Of a stretch of DNA of 64,000 nucleotides, positions 385 through 47,935 are shown in pieces. Below the pieces are notes generated by a model. The model searched no databases. It was not told the origin of the DNA and saw nothing but the letters and a program-made list of their open reading frames with translations. Position 1 is the first letter of the stretch. Each line of letters starts with the position of its first letter. Origin of the DNA: Hoplostethus atlanticus (lineage: Eukaryota > Chordata > Actinopteri > Trachichthyiformes > Trachichthyidae); the NCBI GenBank assembly GCA_034670405.1, contig JAXDDX010000041.1:2893001-2957000 (forward strand), written 5' to 3'. The position numbers were made by a program, and so were the translations under genes.

Positions 385-909
385 TGAAAGCTTTTACATT
401 TGATGTTATAAACACTTGGTGTCAGGTAAGTCTTTCTAGAAAAAATTCCTCTGTCGCACAGGAAGTGATGCGTTTTACATTTCCGACACACTGTTTGATT
501 GACAAGTGATCTCTGGGAAGCAGTGGCGGCTGGTGCATTTTTCTCCAGGGGGGGCTATACCAAAAATCAAACAAACATGTACTAAGGTATCATCAGTGTA
601 TTTAAATAAATGAAAAGGCCTTTATTTGTATTTGCTGAGCTGAATGAACATTTGTTGTAATGAAACGTGCTTAAGGTAAGTTAAGGTACTTCAATTAGTA
701 CAAATTCTTCATAATAATTATCTTTTATACTACAATATGTAATGGTGAAAGACTAAAGTAACCGAAAAGTGCCTCGATAAGTGCAACAGAAATCTGACAA
801 CACAAAACCCTGAGACAATGGCAGAAAATTATGAACACAATAACACCTAATAGAATTTTTTTTTTTTTTTTTTATTAATATGGTATTACATTTGAAATAC
901 CCAGTGCCA

Positions 910-1388
910 TCAAAACGCTGAGTGAACTGGCTCAAAGCCATATGACTTTGCCACCTTGTGGCTTAAACGTTTTGTACATAAATGTTGCCCTTCTCTCCTT
1001 GAGAGATGCACATTTCTCAATGACTCTATGGCACCACAGAACTTGACACAGTTTATTATTTTAGACAGGATGTGCCTGTTTTTGTCAACCTCTTCATTAT
1101 GCTCACGGATCCCTGTCCTGTAGCCTTCATCAAGCTGAGCAGCTATGTTTACTTTCCCAAACATTTGCTTTTGCTTTTTCTGATATGTGGTTTAAATCAT
1201 TCAAACCTTTCTGAATCCATGCTGGGTCTGAGACCTGTCGTTTGAAAAAGGGTGCAGGGAAAGCAAAATAAAGCATTGGTGTCACTACATACAGTTAGCC
1301 AAGCCTTCCTACTAAACCAGCTCCTTGAAAACGACCGAGTATATTGTCTCATTCTGGCGCATTTTATGTCAGATGTACCACGAGCCAC
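910..1388 (-). pseudogene. Broken hAT transposase (TTF zinc finger plus start of DUF4371)
   Basis: The minus-strand frame at 1197-1388 gives a fragment with SRSWFSRKAWLTVCSDTNAL and CFPC, the hallmark of TTF-type zinc-finger hAT transposases of vertebrate genomes. The next frame at 910-1164 gives the beginning of the DUF4371 region. Between them the frame shifts and the usual spacer has been lost. No hAT C-terminal dimerisation domain follows before the element ends at 521. This is a remnant and is unlikely to make an active protein. The same two fragments recur in the second copy. Confidence 0.8.
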
Positions 1389-1453
1389 TCGCTCTCTGCT
1401 GCCAACCAGTGGTTGGTGGTGTGTAAATCAGCAGCATTCAGATAAATGCTGTT

Positions 1454-1546
1454 TGTACATGCGCAGTTCGTTGGTGGGGCGCAGCTTTCCTGCGCCCCAC
1501 CAAGCTCCTATCTCTTGTATTGAGAGGAGCGAACTGCGCATGTACA
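1454..1546. repeat. Perfect nested palindrome inside hAT copy 1
   Basis: Two perfect inverted-repeat pairs are nested. The outer arms are 17 nt (1454-1470 with 1530-1546). The inner arms are 14 nt (1471-1484 with 1490-1503, 5-nt loop TTGGTGGGGCGCAG type). The left arms are contiguous, giving a 31-nt arm, and the right arms are separated by a 26-nt bulge. The structure could form a strong hairpin or cruciform. It is conserved in copy 2 (11200-11292). Confidence 0.9.
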
Positions 1547-2060
1547 ATTTATAACGAGAGTCAATGGGCAAAGATTTTTGCGCCCCAGGCCGGAAATACG
1601 TGGCCTAGCAGTAACTTTAGACAACGTAGAACAATTTTAATCTACATTTTATTGCAGATTATACATTCTACTCACTAACTATATGATATTTACCTCGCTC
1701 ATTTAAAAAAAATATATAAGAAAGTAATTTTTAAAGTCTTATTCAATGAAGTCTAGGATGTGGGGAGTGGTGGGGCGGCGCCCTAGCGCCCTCTATTGGC
1801 CAGCCGCCACTGCTGGGAAGTGATCCACAGAAACACCACAGTGACCAAAGATGTTGACAAAATAAAAACAAAAATCTGGAAGATTACCACTTTGAGATTA
1901 AAATTTATTAAATATTAACAAAATAATTTATAAAATATTTTATACACATCACTTTCATTATTATTTATTTCATAATTTATGAGCAGCTTAAGGAGTGGAA
2001 TGAGTGATCTTCTAATACAAAATATCCATTTAAAATTGGATATGTCTACACAAAATTGGG

Positions 2061-2066
2061 TTTATT
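2061..2066 (-). terminator. Possible polyadenylation signal of the polyketide synthase gene
   Basis: TTTATT on the plus strand reads AATAAA on the minus strand, about 260 nt past the stop codon. Another candidate is at 1904-1909. The choice between them cannot be made from sequence alone. Confidence 0.35.
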
Positions 2067-2327
2067 TTGACTTGGCTTATAGTTAAAACAATGTAAAACT
2101 ACTGTAATATTTTAAATATATAATATAAAAATAACTGAGAATAACCATAACCAAACATTTACAAACATGATGAAAAATACAGTATGAATACATGCTTTTG
2201 AATAACGGGAATGCTATTCTTTTGTAAAAACCATTGCAAGTTATTGAATTCACTGATTCTCAATTAGATATTATGATGGTTAAACCTGCATTGCATTAAG
2301 TCTGTGTCATATCTGTGTTTGATAGTC

Positions 2328-5300
2328 CTACAATCTTGTTGAAATAACATCTTCAATCAGAACAGACTCTTGGTTATCACTGACATTTTCACCTCCAGTT
2401 TCTGCACTTAGGATAGCTACCACTATTGATAGTGTGACATTGGGGTCCAACAATTTGACCAAAGGTACATTCACACCTCTCTCTTGAAAGATGAGATTCT
2501 GCAGAGTCATGGCCTGCATTGAGTCAATGCCTAAAGATGAAAGAGGCGCATCATCATTCAGCTCACTCTTGTCAGTACCAATGGTCTCACTCAGCAGAGA
2601 TTTGATATACTCTTTTGGTGAGACAGAGTCTGTTTGTTTAATTTGTGAATCCATCTCTCTGGATTTTTGGAAAGCCTCCTCTACTAATGAGGACAGGCGT
2701 ATGGTCAAGGCAGCATTTTGAGAGAGGATGTTGTACCTGAGGTTTTTGAAGTGAAACCTGCAAACAGCCTGTTGGGGTCTGTTGAGCACAAGGCATTGTT
2801 CCAAACTTTTATAAATCTCAGCCACATCCAACACCATCATCCCCTTTGCCTCCAGAAACCTCTGGAAATGTTCCTTGTTCAAGAGCAGACCAAGGTTCAG
2901 AGCTCCCCAGTTGATAGACTGTCCAGGGAGCCCAAGTGTGCGTCTATATTGACAAAGTGTGTCAAGGAATGTATTAGCTGCAGCATAGTTTGTTTGTGAT
3001 GCATTTCCCAGAAAAGCTGAGATGGAGGAATAACACACAAAGTAATCTAACTGACAGTGCTGTGTTGCATGGTGCAGATTCAGAGCACCATTTACTTTGG
3101 GTTTCAGAACTTTCTCATAGAGAGATTTGTCAAGGGTCTCAATCAGCCCATCGTGCAAGACAACTGCACTGTGAAACACTCCTCTGATTGAACAAGCAGC
3201 GAATTTCTTGCCAATGACACTGATAGCCTTGTTCACATGCTCAGAGACAGACACATCACACTCCAAGGTAGAGATGCATGCCCCACACTGTTTCTCCACA
3301 TTGTGTATCTCTTGTTGCATATCAGGTGTGGGTCTTCTTCTGGAGAGTATGACAATGTGTCCTCCCCCCCTTTGAGAAATGAATTTGACTGTTTCAAAGC
3401 CCAACCCAGAGAGACCACCTGTCACAATGTATACAGCTCTCTTTCGGAAAAGCTGTTTTTTTGTTGCCAGCAATGGAATCTCAGATAGTGTACCTTTGAC
3501 ATCCTTTTCCAGGGCCACAACAGGCAGTTTCTTTAAGTTGAAGTATGATTCTGATCTCTCTAAAGGGAGAATGTTGCTTTCTGCTGTCACATTCTGAAAG
3601 GTAAAGCTCTCAAGAGCAAATGATTTCCTGTTCAAATTTAAGGACTTGAGCCAATGATAAATGTATGGCCTCTGTGCATTCAGTGATCCCTTTTGTAAAA
3701 TGCATGGCATGTGAATGGTCTGCATGTGAACACTTTCCTTCACACTTTGGAAAGCATCTTGAGCAAGCAGACACTGAGACTGAGATTCACAGATGATGAC
3801 AACATTTCGGATGCCAGGAAAGCTGCCAATTTTAGCAATCAGAGATTCATCATATGGAGGCAGGAGGAGAAATGCATCCACTTGATTAATATCCACAAAA
3901 GATCCATTGCACTGTGTGCCAACAACGACATTCCACCCTGATTTGTAAGATGTGACGGCCAAGACTTTCATCAGAGCAGAGTCAGGAACAGAAGATATGA
4001 TTCCCAGATGTTGTTTGGTTCTGGGTAAGGCTCTATGCAGGATCTGCCATGCTAGCACAAAGTATGACACACAGGGTGTTTTTTGAAAGAATGGGAACTT
4101 TTTCACACTGTAGCACACATCCTCCGGAACGGTGATCTTGTTGGCTGCCACAACAGGGTAACAACAAACAACATTGTCTCCAACTTTCAATTTGCTAACA
4201 TCCTTTCCAACTGCTGTAACAGTACCGCTAAAATCGAGAGCAAGTAGCTTGTGGTTCTGAGATGAATATTTATTCCAGTAGAACGTCTGGCCAAATTTCA
4301 AATGTGATGCGCTGACAGGAAAATAATCAGATGAATGAACACATATCTTACTGACCCGAATTTCAACTGATTTCTTACTGATTGGCTGATCCTCATCATC
4401 AAAGGGAGTGGCACACAGTTTAGTCATTGTATATGCATCAGCCGTCTGAAAGATGTAGGGTTCAGACAATGTAGAGCAGAAACTGCCCTCTGAACTGTCA
4501 GTGATTTCAACAGGGGTACGGACGATGGAAGGTTTCAAAATCAACCCGTCTTTAACCACTAATTCTGGGTATTTACTGCAAGGATACAAGCTTAAGACCT
4601 GAGACAGAGCTGTGATGTCAGAGGTAGAGGTAGAACCCATGTCAATCAGCTGAAATGAAAGATCTGCTATCTCTGCAGCAAATGATCTCGTCATACCAGA
4701 GAGGGCAAAACCTGGACTTATGTGGTCTACTGTGATTTCAGATGAACGGTAGGTTATGGTTCTGATGGAGTTTGGAAAATGAATTACCTTCAGTTCAAGG
4801 ACTATTCTGCGGTAAATCTCACAGCAGCTCACCAAATTCTGTAGGACAATGTCAGCTGCCAGTGAAGTGAGGTCTTCTTTACCCCACAAAAACAAGACCT
4901 CGTCAAAGTTTTTCTCAATATCTGTGATATTGAGATTTGCCATGAGAGTGGGGAATCCATGGCTCAAGATATCTTTTGCATGTGTGAAGGAAATGTATCT
5001 AGATCTTGGGTCCAGGTGCTGTTGCATGGCTTTGGATATCCCTAAACGGTCACAGAAGACCAAGGCCTTAGGAGGATGAGAGGATGTGATGCCTTCAGAC
5101 ACAACATTGTAGTCATTATGGTAGAAGTATTCCTCAACTACATAAGAACGAGTACCAAGGTACTTGATCAGCACGTGCTTAACCTCAACCAGCACTCTTC
5201 CCTCTTTATCTGTGAAGCAGCCACATACTTCAAATTGATCAGCAGCCACATTAATTGCTCTCAGATAAACAATCATCTCATCTTGCAAGGGTTCAAAAAC

Positions 5301-8300
5301 CGTCAAACTTCCTATTTTTGCAGGAAACCCTGGTCTGCCAGCAAATGCGTGTGCTATTGTAACTGGGAGAAGTTGCATTAGGAAGTCAAGAATAACAGGA
5401 TGGATGCAGTACTCGTGCAACTGAGACCGTAATTCTTCTGGAACTGTGACAACTGAAAAAGCCTCCATCAGTTCTTCCCCATAATGCACATCGCACTTAT
5501 TTTTGAAAACATCCCCATACTGAAAGCCACCTTGAGAAAGGTATCCATAGAACTCTTCAGAGCTCACTACAGATTTGCATCTTTTGTAGATGGAGCTTAT
5601 CGAAATACTTTGCTCCTCAATTAATCTCTCTGGCTTGGAAACTACTGTACCTGATGCGAAGACTGCAGATGCGGAGAACACTGTGAAATTAGTTTTGTTC
5701 CCTGCTTGCTCTAGTTGCACTTTCATTTCTGGTGCATTCTGGGTTAAAACAAATGGACTCTGAAAATTGACACTGAGCTGAAGTGAATTAAGAGGGACCT
5801 TTGGCTTGGCACTGGCCATGAATGTGGCTAAACCCAACTCAGCGTAGAAGGCTCCAGCGATGATGGGTATACCATTGTGTGTATGCTCGCGCAAGTAGGA
5901 TGAAGAGTCAGACAACAGATCACAGCTGAAAACATTGCTTTCATTACCAGTTTGACAGAGCACAGGGTGATTACCTGCTGTGCTTTTCTGTGCTGCTCCA
6001 ATGATAACATCTCTCTTCGAGCAATCAAACTGGTATCTTGGGAAAGGCAATGGGGTTGTCTCATATCCTCTGTAGAACTGGTTCCAATCTACCCGCACCC
6101 CGAGTTCAAACAGCTTAGATACAGTGGTCAGCATTGTTTCATGGTCTTTCTCTGGCTGCACTGAGGCAAGAACAGGGGTGTTATTTCCCAGAGATTCCAT
6201 GATGTTCCTTTGGAGGGCCCTCCTTGGGCCTATTTCTACAAAGACTACATTCTTCTTCCCTTTAGTTGCTGATCTCACTGCCTGCTCAAAAGATACTGGC
6301 TCACGAATATTTCTGGCCCAGTATTCTCCTGTGCAAAAATCAGGCTGCTCTACCTCCTTGCCTGTCACTGTAGAGAACAACTCTGTCTCTAGATCATTCA
6401 CCTGTAAGGAACCAATACTGTCCTCTATTTCAGACAGAACTGGGTCCATCATGTGGCTGTGGTAAGCGGCAGGGACATCCAGTACACGGAGGAACAGATT
6501 CTGACTATTCATAGAGGTGCTTAACTCATCGTGGAGGCTTTCTATTGCGTCTGCATCACCTGAGAGGGTGCAGGACTGGGGGCTGTTAAAAGCAGCAATG
6601 CAAACCCTATTGGAGTAACGAGGGAGAAGGTTAGCAACATCTGATACAGCCATATTGCTGATCACAAGCATTTTCCCTCCTGTGACCTTGTTCTGGAGAG
6701 TACTGCGTAAGTAGATTACTTTTACGGCATCCTCAATAGACAAGAGGCCAGAACAGTGAGCAGCTGCCACCTCTCCAACAGAGTGTCCAAGAATGGCATC
6801 AGGTTGGACACCCCAATGCTTGAATAGGGTGGCAATGCCAACCTGAATGGCAAAGAGGAGGGGCTGGACAACGTCTGGTTTAGTGAAATCGCTACTCTCA
6901 AACTCACTCTGAAGTATGTCCAAGATGTTCACCTTACTCAATCTTTGGAAACGTTCGCCAATCTCTTTGATCTTATCTCTGAATACACTCTCCTGTTTTA
7001 ATAGCTGCTTACACATGCCATGGTAAGTGACGCCATTCCCACAGAAGACAAACACTAATCTTGGATCTGAGTAGGAGGGGGCAATGTTTTTGCTCAAGGC
7101 AGATTGTAGCTGATCTTTAAGATCAACTACAGATGAAATCATGACAGCCTTTCTGTATTTGTGTTTTAGATGGCTCCTCCTACAAGCTGATGTGTACACC
7201 AGGGAATCTAGATCAACTTTACTCTCTCCATCTAGCTGTTTAATGGTGTCTTCCATCATCAAAGTGAGTGATTTTGATGAATTTGCGGACATAACAAAAT
7301 ACTTTGTTTGTTTCCCAACATTGTCTTGCTGAAGCTGTGACTGCTTGTGTTGCTTGACAATAGCATGTGCATTTGTTCCCCCAAAGCCAAAGTTGTTAAC
7401 GCCTGCTATTCTTTCGCCAGAGGCTTGCCACTTCTCTGCTTCAGTAGGAACCTTTATGTTTAGGGCTTTGGCATCTACACTGGCACTGTCTTCGGAGTAG
7501 AAAACGGAGGGAACAATGGTTTCATGCTTTATCATTAAGAGTACCTTAATGAGCCCTGCCACTCCAGCTGCAGATTCTGTGTGTCCAATGTTGCTCTTCA
7601 CAGAGCCGATGCGGAGTGTCTCTGAATCTGGAGGTCTGGCTTTAGCAATGACGTTTGAGATGCTCCCTGCCTCTGCTGGGTCTCCAATTGGGGTTCCGGT
7701 CCCGTGTGCCTCTATGTACTGGACATTTGCAAGGTCAGACCCTGAGTAGATTCTGCGCAGCAGCTCTTCTTGTTGAACCATGGAGGGCTTGGTGATTGGA
7801 GTGACTGAGTGGCCATCTTGGTTGACTGCTGTTTTGCTGATGATTCCCCATACATGATCATGGTCCTGTATAGCCTGTTTGACATATAGGAGTTTGCAAT
7901 GTTATTCTATAGATTATAATTACATTGTTATGATGGAATATTGTTGCATACAAAGTCAAGATTACACAGTAAGATCCTTAAATTGAATAGGAATAAAAAA
8001 TAAAACAAATCAATGAACTGGGCAAATCATATCAATATTGGTTGAAGTTACCAATATTGTGTGAAATGAATATTGTGATATCAATTTATATTAATTCCTG
8101 AATATTCTGACCTTTTTCAGTGGTTTCAGCAGAACGACCCCACAGCCCTCTCCTCTGCCATAGCCATCTGCTCTGCTGGAGAAAGGCTTGCTGGTTCCTT
8201 CAGGTGAGATCATCTTCGCCTTGCTGAGAGCAACAAAGACTCTTGGCTCGATGATACAGTTGACCCCTCCACACACTGCCATCTCACAGTCTCCTGATAA

Positions 8301-10056
8301 GGTAAAACATCAGTATTTTATGGCCAGTTCTAGAGGGAGTATTGTGTCAATAGTTTTTGTTCAGACATACTCTACATACACACCCTGTTTAATGGATTGA
8401 CAGGCAAGATGAAGAGCCACAAGGGATGATGAGCAAGCACAGTCTATGGACAGTGACGGTCCAGTGAAGTTGAAGATGTAAGAGACTCGGTTCGCTGCTA
8501 TACTCATAGCTAGCCCTGTGCCAGTCCAGTGGTTGATCACACTCGGGTGCACGTGTGCAGCAGATTGCTCATAATCTCTGTTCATTAGGCCTATAACAAA
8601 AACAGAAAATGTACACATCATAGTGGATACTACTTTAATATTGCACTGAGAGATTTATCAATGAGTAATTGTAAATTTAAATTGCATGGTAAAAACTTCC
8701 ATCAGGGAAAATACTCAACTACAATGTAATTGCATTTTTGACTCAACGTAGAAGCAGCATTGGTAATATAACACCAAATTAAACATAAACAGTTATCAAT
8801 AACATATTTTTATCGTTTTACCAAAAAACACGCCTGTCCTAGTCCCACTGGCCTTCTCCATTGGAATTCCAGCATTCTCTAAAGCCCTGTACACACACTG
8901 AAGAAGCTGTTTTTGTTGAGGGTCCATTTGTTCCACTTCGCTGTCACTGATGCCAAAGAACTTGTGATCAAATTCATTGAACCTGGAGAAATTCACAGAC
9001 ATTTCAGGTTGGATTTAATGAGTGAAAAAATAGGTTGTTAGCCTAAAATGACACCAGGTTAATATGACGTTCGATTGATGTTTAATTGTTTTTTATGGTA
9101 ATTATCACTCATTATACCCATTAGTATCACTCATTATCCATTACTAATCATGTGAGAGAACCGGTAGTTATGGTAGTTATGAGTAAAACATATGTCTTAG
9201 TGAATTATTTGTTGTTAATTTGACACAGGTTTAAAGCCCTTACCCATCAATAAGAGCAGCCTTAGCAGTGCGGGATTTTCCCGCTTTGTTGTCATCGGGG
9301 TCATACCAGCTGGCTAGGTCAAACCTCTCCTTGGGAATTGGCACAGAACAGTTCCTCCCATCCACAAGAACCTTCCAGAAATTGTCAAGCCCTTCTCCTG
9401 TTTGAAATGATAAATACAGTGGGGTCCACTACCACTACTTGTTTTCATCATTCATCAAAAACTAATACATTTTTTTCAGTTGATACTTATAATTCAACAA
9501 TACATTATTTAGATGCAAATCCAAATGTTTAGCTCTTTGAGAAATGCTTGTATGAAATTGAAATAAGAGTGAGTCCACAGTCCTGATTTAAGTTGTGCTC
9601 AATGGCCTAGAGGTTGCTTTTCAAATAAAATTGTAATTTGTGCACATTAACTTAATATTAAATCAAATAATTGCACAAAATCACACAATCACCGTATTCC
9701 ATTTTACTGTATTTGTTTAGTAACTAGTCTAGTGCAAGGCGTAGTACCTGTCAAGTACAGTATCGGTAAAGAAAACATTTTATGCAAACTAAAAGTGATG
9801 AAATCCTAGACACAATTTGTTTGGATTTTTTATTTTTTGTTTCACATATTTGTTTCACCTTTGTGTAACAATATATTTTGCATTTTCTTTGTATATCTTT
9901 TTTAATATTGTGTGTGAGAGGTCTGTTAATGCCACTTATTCTGTAAAATGTAGAGAAACAATAAAAACGTTCAAAGCTTCAAAACTCAAATGGCTTACCC
10001 CCTGGAAAATTGCATCCTATGCCCACCACGGCAATGCCATCTTCAGCTTCTTCCAT
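2328..10056 (-). CDS. pks1: Type I polyketide synthase (animal PKS1), six exons, 2102 aa
   Basis: Coding exons on the minus strand are 9999-10056, 9244-9397, 8822-8982, 8384-8590, 8112-8293 and 2328-7874. All junctions are GT-AG, phases agree, and the total of 6309 nt gives 2102 residues plus stop. The product is a cytosolic iterative megasynthase related to fatty acid synthase. It condenses acyl and malonyl units on its own carrier domain. Domain order: ketosynthase (about 5-430; active Cys177 in DCACSSS, His311 in EAHGTGT, His352 in NIGHTE); acyltransferase (about 525-830; Ser619 in GHSVGE); dehydratase-like (about 890-1170; His near 918); a region like an MDR enoyl reductase (about 1400-1700) whose nucleotide-binding glycine loop is not recognisable; ketoreductase (about 1735-1920; TGGLSGLG, then YAAAN); carrier protein (Ser2039 in GIDSMQ). 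There is no thioesterase, so release must be in trans or non-enzymatic. The ATG begins [20 protein letters not shown]. Fish homologues are known for a role in otolith seeding and bird ones in pigment; the role here is inferred. Confidence 0.95.
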
Positions 10057-10266
10057 GATTACTGTACATCACTGTGAACAACTGCAAACAGAATGAAAAA
10101 AAATTCTGATATTAGTCCAGCTATGTCATGCACCCATGCCTCCCTCACTTTGCTGTTTGCTTATACAGCCATACAGTTGGTTCTTATAGCCGAGTTTCTT
10201 TTCTTTATAAAACATTAATGATTGACCGTAAACGTGGCCATGGAGATGAAGGACTTCAGTGCACAC
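10057..10266 (-). promoter_or_regulatory. Upstream region of pks1 before the hAT insertion
   Basis: These 210 bases lie between the pks1 start codon and the second hAT element. On the minus strand a short upstream ATG out of frame with pks1 is present about 15 nt before the start. CAG sites just before it could act as a splice acceptor, so an untranslated first exon may lie farther upstream, beyond the hAT copy. I see no TATA box here. Confidence 0.3.
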
Positions 10267-10661
10267 CAGTGGCGGCTGGTGCATTTTTCTCCAGGGGGGG
10301 GCTATACCAAAAATCAAACAAACATGTACTAAGGTATCATCAGTGTATTTAAATAAATGAAAAGGCCTTTATTTGTATTTGCTGAGCTGAATGAACATTT
10401 GTTGTAATGAAACGTGCTTAAGGTAAGTTAAGGTACTTCAATTAGTGCAAATTCTTTATAATAATTATCTTTTATACTACAATATGTAATGGTGAAAGAC
10501 TAAAGTAACCGAAAAGTGCCTCGATAAGTGCAACAGAAATCTGACAACACAAAACCCTGAGACAATGGCAGAAAATTATGAACACAATAAGACCTAATAG
10601 AAAATAACATTTAAGAAAAAAATTAATTAATATGGTATTACATTTGAAATACCCAGTGCCA

Positions 10662-11140
10662 TCAAAAAGCTGAGTGAACTGGCTCAAAGATATATGATTT
10701 TGCCACCTTGTGGCTTAAACTTTTTGTACATAAATTTTGCCCTTCTCTCCTTGAGAGATGCACATTTGTCAATGACTCTATGGCACCACAGAACTTGACA
10801 CAGTTTATTATTTTAGACAGGATGTGCCTGTTTTTGTCAACCTCTTCATTATGCTTACAGATCCCTATCCTGCAGCCTTCATCAAGCTGAGCAGCTATGT
10901 TTACTTTCCCAAACATTTGCTTTTGATTTTTCTGATATGTGGTTTAAATCATTCAAACCTGTCTGAATCCATGCTGGGTCTGAGACCTGTCGTTTGAAAA
11001 AGGGTGCAGGGAAAGCAAAATAAAGCATTGGTGTCACTACATACAGTTAGCCAAGCCTTCCTACTAAACCAGCTCCTTGAAAACGACCGAGTATATTGTC
11101 TCATTCTGGCGCATTTTATGTCAGATGTACCACGAGCCAC
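10662..11140 (-). pseudogene. Broken hAT transposase, copy 2
   Basis: The same TTF zinc-finger fragment (10949-11140) and DUF4371 start (10662-10916) as in copy 1 are present, with the same frame break between them and the same missing C-terminal half. The shared break means both copies descend from one already defective element, which was mobilised by transposase supplied elsewhere. Confidence 0.8.
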
Positions 11141-11199
11141 TCGCTCTCTGCTGCCAACCAGTGGTTGGTGGTGTGTAAATCAGCAGCATAAATGCTGTT

Positions 11200-11292
11200 T
11201 GTACATGCGCAGTTCGTTGGTGGGGCGCAGCTTTCCTGCGCCCCACCAAGCTCCTATCTCTTGTATTGAGAGGAGCGAACTGCGCATGTACA
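11200..11292. repeat. Nested palindrome inside hAT copy 2
   Basis: Same architecture as in copy 1: outer 17-nt arms, inner 14-nt arms and a 26-nt bulge on one side. Both arms are unchanged between the two copies. Confidence 0.85.
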
Positions 11293-11718
11293 ATTTATAA
11301 CGAGAGTCAATGGACAAAGATTTTTGCGCCCCAGGCCGGAAATACGTGGCCTAGCAGTAACTTTAGACAACGTAGAACAATTTTAATCTACATTTTATTG
11401 CAGATTATACATTCTACTCACTAACTATATAATATTTACGTCGCTCATTTAAAAAAAAAAGAAAAAAAAGAAAGTAATTTTTAAAGTCTTATTCAATGAA
11501 GTCTAGGATGTGGGGAGTGGTGGGGCGGCGCCCTAGCGCCCTCTATTGGCCAGCCGCCACTGGTGCACACCTTTATGGTGCCTTGCAAATGATTAGACCA
11601 AGTTTAATGAGTAAATCAATATGTTATCAGGTGACTTTAGATCCTGTTTCATCAAGGCTTATATTGTGAGAGTAACAAACAACCAAACAAGCAGGAAATC
11701 GAGTTTAAAATATTCTTC

Positions 11719-11948
11719 GGTGTTCCAGGCATGTCCAACGGGGAGGAGGCCCCGGGGCAGACCAAGGACCAGGTGGCGTGATTACATTTACGCATTGGCC
11801 TTGGAACGTCTTGGGATCCCCAGGGCAGAGCTGGCGGATGTGGCCAGGGAAAGGGAAGTCTGGGGCTCTCTGCTGGAACTGTTGCCTCCGCGACCCGACC
11901 CCGGATAAGCGGATGAAGATGAAGATGAGAATTAATAGGATTTTAAAC
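11719..11948 (+). mobile_element. LINE ORF2 3' end, truncated, copy 1
   Basis: The plus-strand reading frame ends in the typical tail of a fish non-LTR retrotransposon ORF2 (motif GRRPRGRPRTRWRDY, then LLELLPPRPDPG). A GATGAA-type simple tail follows. The copy is 5' truncated. It is identical over all 230 bases to the reverse complement of 13468-13697. I cannot assign the clade with certainty. Confidence 0.85.
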
Positions 11949-12343
11949 CTATTTACCACACTACACCACACTACATAGTTTCCATGCAAAGCTAACATTT
12001 TGACTTGTGTTTGACTAGTTAACTTTCCACCATGAAAACATTATACCTATTGATATACCTATTGATACTTTTTTATACCTAGCAATAGTTACAGTAGTCT
12101 TTGGCTAGTGTCACCCACCCTAAAAATGGCACAATAATTTGGGTATGCTTACAGTGAAGAGATGTCTTGAGGCTTGTGTAGGAGACAATCGATGTCGTAA
12201 TTCCTACAGCTCACCGATAGAGGTTGATCAAGGTCATAGATTACTTAACGCCCCTTTAAGAATTTGTAAAGATTAATTTTTAGAGCCTTCATGAAGGACA
12301 GGAGTGGTAGAATGCTTCATGGAAGAGCAGAAGCAGCAATAAA

Positions 12344-12855: not shown

Positions 12856-13467
12856 AGCTAATCACTTTAATATTAGACTATGATCCCTGAATCACCCTGG
12901 TGGACAAAACAAGTACATAGGCAATAACAAGAAGATAACTGTTGAATATGAATATCACTGCCTGTTCAGCAAGATGGAAAATCCATAAAGGAGCAAACAA
13001 CTTGTATAACCAAGGTGATTTTCCTAGTATCAAACAAAAACTTGCCTCATCTAAAACATTTAACAATTGAAATGCTCTTGGTCAGTTGTAGTTGCATAAG
13101 GTATGTCCAAAGGCCAGTTTTGCTTACCTTACCTACACATTTCAGCACAGTAATCAACAACAGCAACTTATCGGTATCAATAAGCCTTATTCAAGGTTTG
13201 TCTGATAAGTTTTGATGTATGACTTCAAAAGATGTGTTCCTGCATTCTGAACAACGACTACCTTGACCTGAACATATCTAATCAAAACATATCATAATGG
13301 AATATAAATTAAGGCCATCCTCGTAAATAACAAGCAGTCAATACATTATCTAATGTATTGACATCTAGATAACATTGCTCACTCCCTTAATGTTTATGAG
13401 TGATGAAACAGGGTTACTTAATGTTTAAGTTTGTGTGATTATTAATGGATTACAGTGTGAGGATCAT
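12856..13467. other. Intergenic spacer between two LINE relics
   Basis: I see no gene. A perfect small palindrome lies at 13337-13362 (12-nt arms GTCAATACATTA, 2-nt spacer). Confidence 0.5.
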
Positions 13468-14092
13468 GTTTAAAATCCTATTAATTCTCATCTTCATCTT
13501 CATCCGCTTATCCGGGGTCGGGTCGCGGAGGCAACAGTTCCAGCAGAGAGCCCCAGACTTCCCTTTCCCTGGCCACATCCGCCAGCTCTGCCCTGGGGAT
13601 CCCAAGACGTTCCAAGGCCAATGCGTAAATGTAATCACGCCACCTGGTCCTTGGTCTGCCCCGGGGCCTCCTCCCCGTTGGACATGCCTGGAACACCTCT
13701 CTAGGGAGGCGCCCAGCAGGCATCCTGACCAGATGCCCGAACCACCTCAACTGACTCCTTTCAACGCAAAGGAGCAGCGGCTCTACTCTGAGTCTCTCCC
13801 GGATGACTGAACTTCTCACCTTATCTCTAAGGGAGACGCCAGCCACCCTCCTGAGGAAACTCATTTCAGCCGCTTGTATCCTGGATCTCGTTCTTTCGGT
13901 CATGACCCATCCCTCATGACCATAGGTTAGGGTCGGGACAAAGATTGACCGGTAGATCGAGAGCTTCGCCTTCTGGCTCAGCTCTCTCTTCGTCACGACA
14001 GTGCGGTAGAGTGACCTCAAAACCGCTCCTGCCGCTCCGATTCTCCGGCCAATCTCCCGCTCTATAGTCCCCTCACTCGTGAACAAGACTAT
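13468..14092 (-). mobile_element. LINE ORF2 3' end, truncated, copy 2
   Basis: The minus-strand frame from about 14090 to 13508 encodes the C-terminal part of a non-LTR retrotransposon ORF2 (VLFTSEG at the start, LSIYRSIFVPTLTYGHEGW, LRWFGHLVRMPAGRLPREVF, then GRRPRGRPRTRWRDY). It is uninterrupted for about 190 codons. The last 230 bases are identical in inverted orientation to 11719-11948, including 20-odd bases beyond the simple tail. The 5' end is truncated near 14090. Confidence 0.85.
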
Positions 14093-28458: not shown

Positions 28459-28680
28459 CATTACATTACATTACAGTCATTTAGCAGACACTTTTATCCA
28501 AAGCGACTTACAATAAGTGCATTCAACATAGATAGGCATGAGAACTACTAGTCACCAGAAATCATAAGTGCATTTCCTTCCTAAACAAGCAACTAAGAGC
28601 AGAACCAGTGCTAAGGTAAAAGTGCAATAAGTTAGCTACCTACTTTTTATTTAAACAAATGAGACCAATAAGTGAAGCAA
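28459..28680 (-). repeat. SINE/LINE tail of the AAGCGTCTGC type, plus flanking repeat
   Basis: The minus strand reads TGTAAGTCGCTTTGGATAAA and then AGTGTCTGCTAAATGACTGT, followed by a TAATG-type tail (28459-28478). This is the 3' end shared by many teleost tRNA-derived SINEs and their partner LINEs. The following 150 bases (28530-28680) also look repeat-derived. Another copy of the tail is at 47885-47935. Confidence 0.65.
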
Positions 28681-47150: not shown

Positions 47151-47803
47151 TCCTTTAAAAGTGTCAAACCCGCTACAAAAAAAGTAGTTCACAAGCTTTA
47201 TTATCATAATGGATTGCAAGTCGTCCCAGATATTTCAGTGAAACAGCAAACCGTGCAAGCCTCGAGACTTCAGTTTACATACACCAGCAATGAGGGATGA
47301 GGACAGGAAATTACAGAGGAAATTTGTTATCGTAATGTTTACACGGGGCCATTCTCATTCACAATTTTTAAAACGTTTAGTGCCAAGAACGGGGCGTCTA
47401 GGAATTCTAGTTTTGAATTGATGACTTCTGGATTTTATACTAAAGAACACGAGTTTTGCTGAAAAAGGTGACATCTCAGAACAATTTATGATACTTTTTG
47501 TGGTGTAACATAAGTCCTTATGACTAGATCCTCTATATTCACTCTTCTTTACCAGCTGATTCCTACTCAGGGTCATGGGGGATATTTGATAATTAACCTC
47601 ATGTGACACTGCTTGCCAGTGAAACGTTTTAATTGAACTGCATCTGTATATTTCTGTTAGGATACATCGTCTAGGGGACATGAAATCAATGCTGGGGCTC
47701 ATTACAACACAACACTATTTTATATTGTATATAGCTGACACTAAATAATAGTACTTCTAATTCACTAATGTACTAATCTGAGTCAGTTATCAGACTGAAA
47801 TGA
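47151..47803. other. Intergenic sequence
   Basis: No gene recognised. A 115-codon minus-strand frame (47355-47702) has no domain I know. Confidence 0.4.
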
Positions 47804-47935
47804 TACTGAACAGCTCAGTCGGTAGAGCATGAGACTCTCAGTCTCAGGGTCGTGGGTTTGATCCCCACATAGTGTCAACTATCACCTTTGTAAGTTGCTT
47901 TAGATAAAAGCGTCTGCCAAATGACTGTAATGAAA
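47804..47935 (+). repeat. tRNA-Lys-derived SINE
   Basis: The head (47804-47876) keeps the D, anticodon and T arms of tRNA-Lys almost unchanged. The acceptor arms no longer pair, and the anticodon reads CTC instead of CTT. The 3' part (47885-47935) is the TAAGTTGCTTTAGATAAAAG and CGTCTGCCAAATGACTGTAA tail shared with teleost LINEs. An intact tRNA-Lys gene lies at 57889-57961. Confidence 0.85.

Follow-up and report, generated by a model that had tools for sequence, protein, structure and literature searches.

Two same-orientation hAT-type copies around a polyketide synthase gene of Hoplostethus atlanticus are very probably independent insertions of a common family

Results

Two hAT copies flank an intact polyketide synthase gene

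Within the 64,000-bp stretch of Hoplostethus atlanticus DNA that we analysed (hereafter the window), a type I polyketide synthase (PKS) gene lies between two non-autonomous hAT-type copies, and we consider it very probable that these were inserted independently around the intact gene and share their orientation by chance. The anatomy of the pair permits recombination or composite transposition, but this haplotype shows neither.

Copy A occupies 521-1812 (plus strand, 1292 bp) and copy B 10267-11562 (plus strand, 1296 bp). A perfect 13-bp terminal inverted repeat, CAGTGGCGGCTGG, is found at both ends of each copy. Copy A is flanked by the 8-bp target-site duplication CTGGGAAG (513-520 and 1813-1820), and copy B by the 8-bp duplication GTGCACAC (10259-10266 and 11563-11570). 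Both copies thus display the short terminal inverted repeats and the 8-bp duplication, here perfect, expected of the hAT superfamily, and the hAT-type ends with two different duplications that a first-pass annotation had described are confirmed. Since each copy has its own perfect duplication, the two appear to be separate insertions, as had also been proposed there. Scanning the window with CAGTGGCGGCTGG at up to two mismatches returned the four ends of A and B and no others, a count of four that was reached in 1 of 100 shuffles, and neither the window nor the adjoining 50 kb on its left showed a third copy of the element.

When aligned, A and B are identical at 1252 of 1286 ungapped columns (97.4%), with 34 mismatches and four gaps totalling 16 columns. 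The alignment upholds the same orientation for both copies, which are spaced ~9.7 kb apart. One poly-T/poly-A stretch holds 12 of the 34 mismatches, and the longest perfectly identical run is 228 bp, followed by runs of 152, 133, 124 and 116 bp. Copies this similar could be confused when assembled from short reads, yet it is extremely improbable that one of them is an assembly artefact: we found no positive sign of one, the substitutions and gaps tell the copies apart, their distinct duplications match on both sides, and the window contains no N, nor does the adjoining 50 kb on its left have a stretch of five N or longer.

The PKS coding sequence runs on the minus strand from 10056 to 2328, so that the earlier claim of a wholly enclosed coding sequence stands. 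It encodes 2102 amino acids in six coding exons with an uninterrupted frame (10056-9999, 9397-9244, 8982-8822, 8590-8384, 8293-8112 and 7874-2328; splice sites inferred from frame and GT-AG), and an alternative start of the last exon at 7865 likewise preserves the frame. A minus-strand open stretch of 1857 codons carries Pfam ketosynthase C-terminal, acyltransferase, dehydratase, ketoreductase and carrier domains, and the first 300 residues of the joined exons contain the full ketosynthase N-terminal domain (profile positions 3-252 of 252, E 7e-90). As in FAS-like animal type I PKSs, ketosynthase, acyltransferase, dehydratase, ketoreductase and carrier are found in one chain. The name pks1 for this gene is the label of the first-pass annotation and a candidate name. 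In medaka and zebrafish, pks1 is required for otolith mineralisation, according to the part of PMC6531356 available to us; the window gene resembles the gene described in that part in being a type I polyketide synthase of fish, and as two PKS paralogues adjoin here, either of them may be the counterpart of pks1.

The start codon lies 210 bp from the left end of copy B and the stop codon 515 bp from copy A. As motif matches only, a putative TATA box, TTTATAAA, was seen on the minus strand at 10204-10211, 47 bp away from copy B's duplication, and three minus-strand AATAAA poly-A signals were seen within 1904-2066 (at 1904, 1964 and 2061). Furthermore, the sequence immediately preceding the start codon resembles a splice acceptor, which points to a short non-coding exon ahead of the coding ones. 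Because the TATA-like motif, the poly-A signals and the coding sequence all lie between the copies, A and B probably enclose the entire transcription unit including its core promoter.

Other repeats in the window include a 244-bp inverted repeat (11719-11962 and 13454-13697; 98% complementary, arms 1.5 kb apart), which gave no Pfam match and has a translation that is LINE-like by eye; it probably consists of two LINE fragments. Two UnaL2-type LINE 3' ends were recognised with Rfam at 28471-28525 and 47802-47930. The second is immediately preceded by a tRNA-Glu-like gene and therefore probably forms the LINE tail of a tRNA-derived SINE.

The flanking duplications bear no mark of recombination or composite insertion

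Long, nearly identical direct repeats on both sides of a gene could make the locus a recombination hot spot, exchange at meiosis between the 1.3-kb copies giving rise to PKS deletions and duplications that segregate in the population. Loss or duplication of the gene through recombination between the copies had been suggested in the first-pass annotation, and part of it stands: direct orientation at this spacing and 97.4% identity with a perfect run of 228 bp make such an exchange physically possible. No trace of it is present in this haplotype. We saw no hybrid copy, whose flanking duplications would differ from each other; the two duplications of each copy match, which means that neither copy is recombinant and that this haplotype is unrecombined, and a recombination product at the PKS locus was rejected for this haplotype on these grounds. 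A whole-assembly protein search also speaks against a hot spot, as it recovered, besides the window gene, only an old paralogue and a pair of short, weak matches. We thus regard a hot spot as quite unlikely.

Alternatively, the bracketed segment might move as a unit, in the manner of the Ac macrotransposons of maize, which excise and reinsert according to the part of PMC9910405 that was available. The left end of A and the right end of B would together span 11,042 bp, the pair is in direct orientation, and these outer ends are suitable and properly oriented. As in the maize Ac/Ds macrotransposons described in the available parts of PMC9910405 and PMC4270019, a host segment lies between two direct hAT copies, but unlike those macrotransposons the PKS segment has no common outer duplication: CTGGGAAG stands on its left and GTGCACAC on its right. 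Since these outer duplications differ, the segment did not insert here as a unit, and a composite insertion at the PKS locus was rejected for this haplotype. At their inner ends, moreover, A and B carry their respective duplications, and the protein search of the assembly found no second close copy of the PKS gene. Composite movement of the 11.0-kb segment, also proposed in the first-pass annotation, was thus not corroborated, and a macrotransposon at this locus is very unlikely, although a unit of the same hAT family elsewhere in the assembly (described below) lends the idea some support.

Independent insertion remains our preferred reading. A and B would belong to one abundant family of non-autonomous hAT-type elements and would have entered independently on either side of the PKS gene by ordinary transposition with 8-bp duplications; their common orientation would be a one-in-two chance, the transposase would have come from an autonomous relative, and nothing further would have happened since both insertions.

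Copies A and B belong to an abundant family and are not especially alike

To place the pair within its family, we searched the whole assembly (632,777,144 bases, ~633 Mb, in 1161 contigs). The element DNA gave at least 57 matches, 40 of them long, among the best 40 of 925 candidates. A 31-mer from the left end, allowed up to three mismatches, matched 595 times (290 forward and 305 reverse; some are truncated copies), while the reversed control 31-mer gave 0 matches. Eight copies were compared, A and B included: seven have a perfect 8-bp duplication and the remaining one (L007) a duplication with one mismatch. Pairwise substitution among the eight was 1.4-3.3%, with 2.64% between A and B. Among the seven others, the closest to B is a copy on contig 55 (L004, 1.39%), and A and B as each other's closest copies were rejected for B on this ground; the closest to A is a copy on contig 78 (L002, 2.56%), with B second at 2.64%. 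Copy A, distinguished by a private poly-T stretch, has diverged further than any of the other seven. The earlier description of the two copies as almost identical is therefore fair as to their difference of 2.6%, but this likeness is not special, as it falls within the range of the eight copies, and by this comparison the pair appears unremarkable within the family.

Non-autonomous hAT elements of animal genomes are internally deleted derivatives. The present element is like them in its 8-bp duplications, short terminal inverted repeats and hundreds of end matches, and in having near-identical copies of similar length with no long reading frame. At 1.3 kb it is longer than a typical miniature element, from which it also differs by an internal inverted repeat near element positions 951-983. 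A search of paper texts with the 13-base end gave no match, and nothing on this hAT family was found among the papers listed in further searches, as judged by titles and abstract openings.

We also looked for a source of transposase. A 93-amino-acid open stretch of copy B showed no hAT domain in Pfam; its sole match was to an unrelated family with E 0.005, below the cut-off of that family. Proteins of the DUF4371 type, which we take to be hAT-derived, are abundant in the assembly (at least 121 matches among the best 150 of 202 candidates). In the four best DUF4371 loci, with ~1.5 kb of flank each, neither ends nor any convincing similarity in common with the element were found, so that none of the four was recognised as its autonomous partner within these flanks; ends located further out would escape this comparison. 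On contig 14 (L022, G000:C14), positions 353-2210 hold an 1858-bp sister element with its own 8-bp duplication and only its ends in common with the 1.3-kb family. Since the likeness is confined to the ends, the sister element suggests that internally different families may be served by one transposase.

Close pairs of the family arise in several ways

We then asked how unusual it is for two copies to lie this close together. Uniform placement of 595 copies would yield 5.5 pairs within 9746 bp, 2.7 of them in the same orientation. By eye, we counted four pairs within 10 kb, all in the same orientation, among 100 listed of the 595 places, the 100 being the exact left-end matches on contigs 1 to 16. 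Together with the PKS pair, these close same-orientation pairs look more frequent than the uniform expectation, as judged by eye. With 595 left-end matches in the assembly, the bracketing of the PKS gene is not unusual for a family of ~600 copies, and chance suffices to account for it.

The four close pairs differ in origin. The pair on contig 14 comprises two elements with different duplications of their own and hence independent insertions, one of the two being the longer sister element described above. On contig 6 (L025, G000:C6:1862100-1872000) the pair reflects a tandem duplication, ~99% identical and 7.4-7.7 kb from start to start, which carries one original hAT insertion (CTTAAAAC) in both of its copies; the element's right end is missing from the first of them. 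The breakpoints of this duplication fall beyond the stretch examined, which leaves it neutral on hAT-mediated exchange, and with its single insertion it neither supports nor excludes a hot spot at the PKS locus. The pair on contig 8 consists of truncated remnants, with no right end within 9.8 kb. The last is a composite-like unit. With one case each of independent insertions, tandem duplication, composite-like unit and truncated remnants, close direct pairs of the family seem to arise in several ways, not all by independent insertion, and the PKS pair is of the ordinary kind.

A unit on contig 9 with tubulin exons is bounded like one hAT insertion

The composite-like unit occupies 494-6808 of a locus on contig 9 (L024, G000:C9:6434600-6441700) and measures 6315 bp. 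Its right end at 494 and its left end at 6808 have the outer octamer GTCTGACC in common. A hAT copy that retains both ends but is internally deleted lies at 494-1549, and an extra left end of 169 bp at 6640-6808. Beyond the inner left end comes CATATGAA, and no counterpart of it is present on the other side of that copy. The interior of ~5 kb holds tubulin exons, with Pfam tubulin domains in three open stretches, and we read the sequence as a tubulin of the alpha kind. Judged by these boundaries, the unit appears to be delimited like one hAT insertion with host DNA inside.

Two origins fit this structure. The unit may stem from composite transposition, starting from a donor with two direct copies around the gene; or it may stem from ectopic repair of a broken hAT copy, with a copy beside a tubulin gene as template, followed by end joining. 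Composite transposition of this kind is known from maize, where Ac macrotransposons and composite insertions are bordered by 8-bp duplications, according to the available parts of PMC9910405 and PMC4270019. Like the Ac/Ds composites described in those parts, the contig-9 unit combines transposon termini and host DNA with a single outer 8-bp duplication; it differs from them in being a static structure in an animal genome, with which ectopic gap repair is equally compatible. That the same hAT family has a 6315-bp unit with alpha-tubulin exons inside one common outer duplication is the strongest support for the composite idea, but it is away from the PKS locus. One could go further and propose that entire host genes are mobilised in this animal genome by a single non-autonomous hAT family. 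The unit on contig 9 would then be a completed case and the PKS locus, with the same topology, one that is loaded but unmoved; we find this possible though doubtful.

Two PKS exon tracts resemble a convergent paralogue far more than the rest of the gene

In the whole-assembly protein search with the PKS, all 8 candidates were scored and five matches obtained. One is the window gene; two belong to a single long paralogue at C41:2884975-2890474 (plus strand), and the remaining two, at other places, are short and weak. When the complete protein is used, the paralogue extends over C41:2883723-2890489 (L017). It lies just left of the window and is convergent with the window gene, copy A being located between the two genes. 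Its two halves show 61% and 50% identity. The paralogue shifts reading frame once mid-gene, near C41:2887717, which may reflect a pseudogene, a short intron or a sequence error. The hAT pair as cause of the PKS duplication was rejected, given that the genes are convergent and 50-61% identical while the hAT copies are 2.6% apart; from this comparison of identities, the PKS duplication is far older than the hAT copies.

Strikingly high identity to the paralogue is confined to parts of the gene. Exon 5 (8112-8293, minus strand; aa 194-253) is 94% identical to the paralogue in DNA, with 24 of 28 fourfold sites identical, and early exon 6 (7479-7835, borders approximate, minus strand; aa 268-386) is 98% identical, with 61 of 63. 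Outside these tracts, the coding alignment shows 61% DNA identity and 145 of 374 identical fourfold sites (the set covers 1856 aligned codons from exon 5 on, with exons 1-4 left out). Exons 2-4 are ~60-75% identical to the paralogue in DNA where aligned. Fisher p-values for the fourfold sites were 1e-6 for exon 5 and 7e-20 for early exon 6, and a third stretch, aa 600-659, had 21 of 31 identical (p = 0.002); these values are descriptive, because the stretches were picked after viewing the profile. The borders of the exon 5 tract coincide with the exon borders within a few bases, and between exons 5 and 6 the two genes have introns that differ in length and have diverged in sequence.

Since adjacent tracts of 94-98% identity flank a diverged intron in genes otherwise 50-61% identical, non-allelic gene conversion between the PKS genes is the best reading of the two exon tracts; the rival reading is an unusual constraint on synonymous sites. 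Because the intron between the tracts is diverged, the pattern suggests either two conversion events or one with a spliced copy as template. Among the papers listed by literature searches, one of them with loosely matched terms, nothing was found on conversion between fish PKS paralogues, which is no proof of absence. The exchange that appears to have left a trace at the PKS locus is thus gene-gene and conversion-like, not transposon-transposon.

Discussion

The evidence comes from one assembly, with one haplotype at the PKS locus. On this basis the A-B pair is what a common family ordinarily produces, and the consequences proposed for it are possible but none is observed in this haplotype. 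Hybrid duplications and a common outer duplication are exact signatures that can be searched for at every close hAT pair, and it was such a search that led to the gene-bearing unit on contig 9 and to the conversion-like exon tracts of the two PKS genes. Altogether, this unit and the conversion-like PKS tracts merit more attention than the hAT pair itself, and the tracts concern the kind of gene that fish need for their ear stones.
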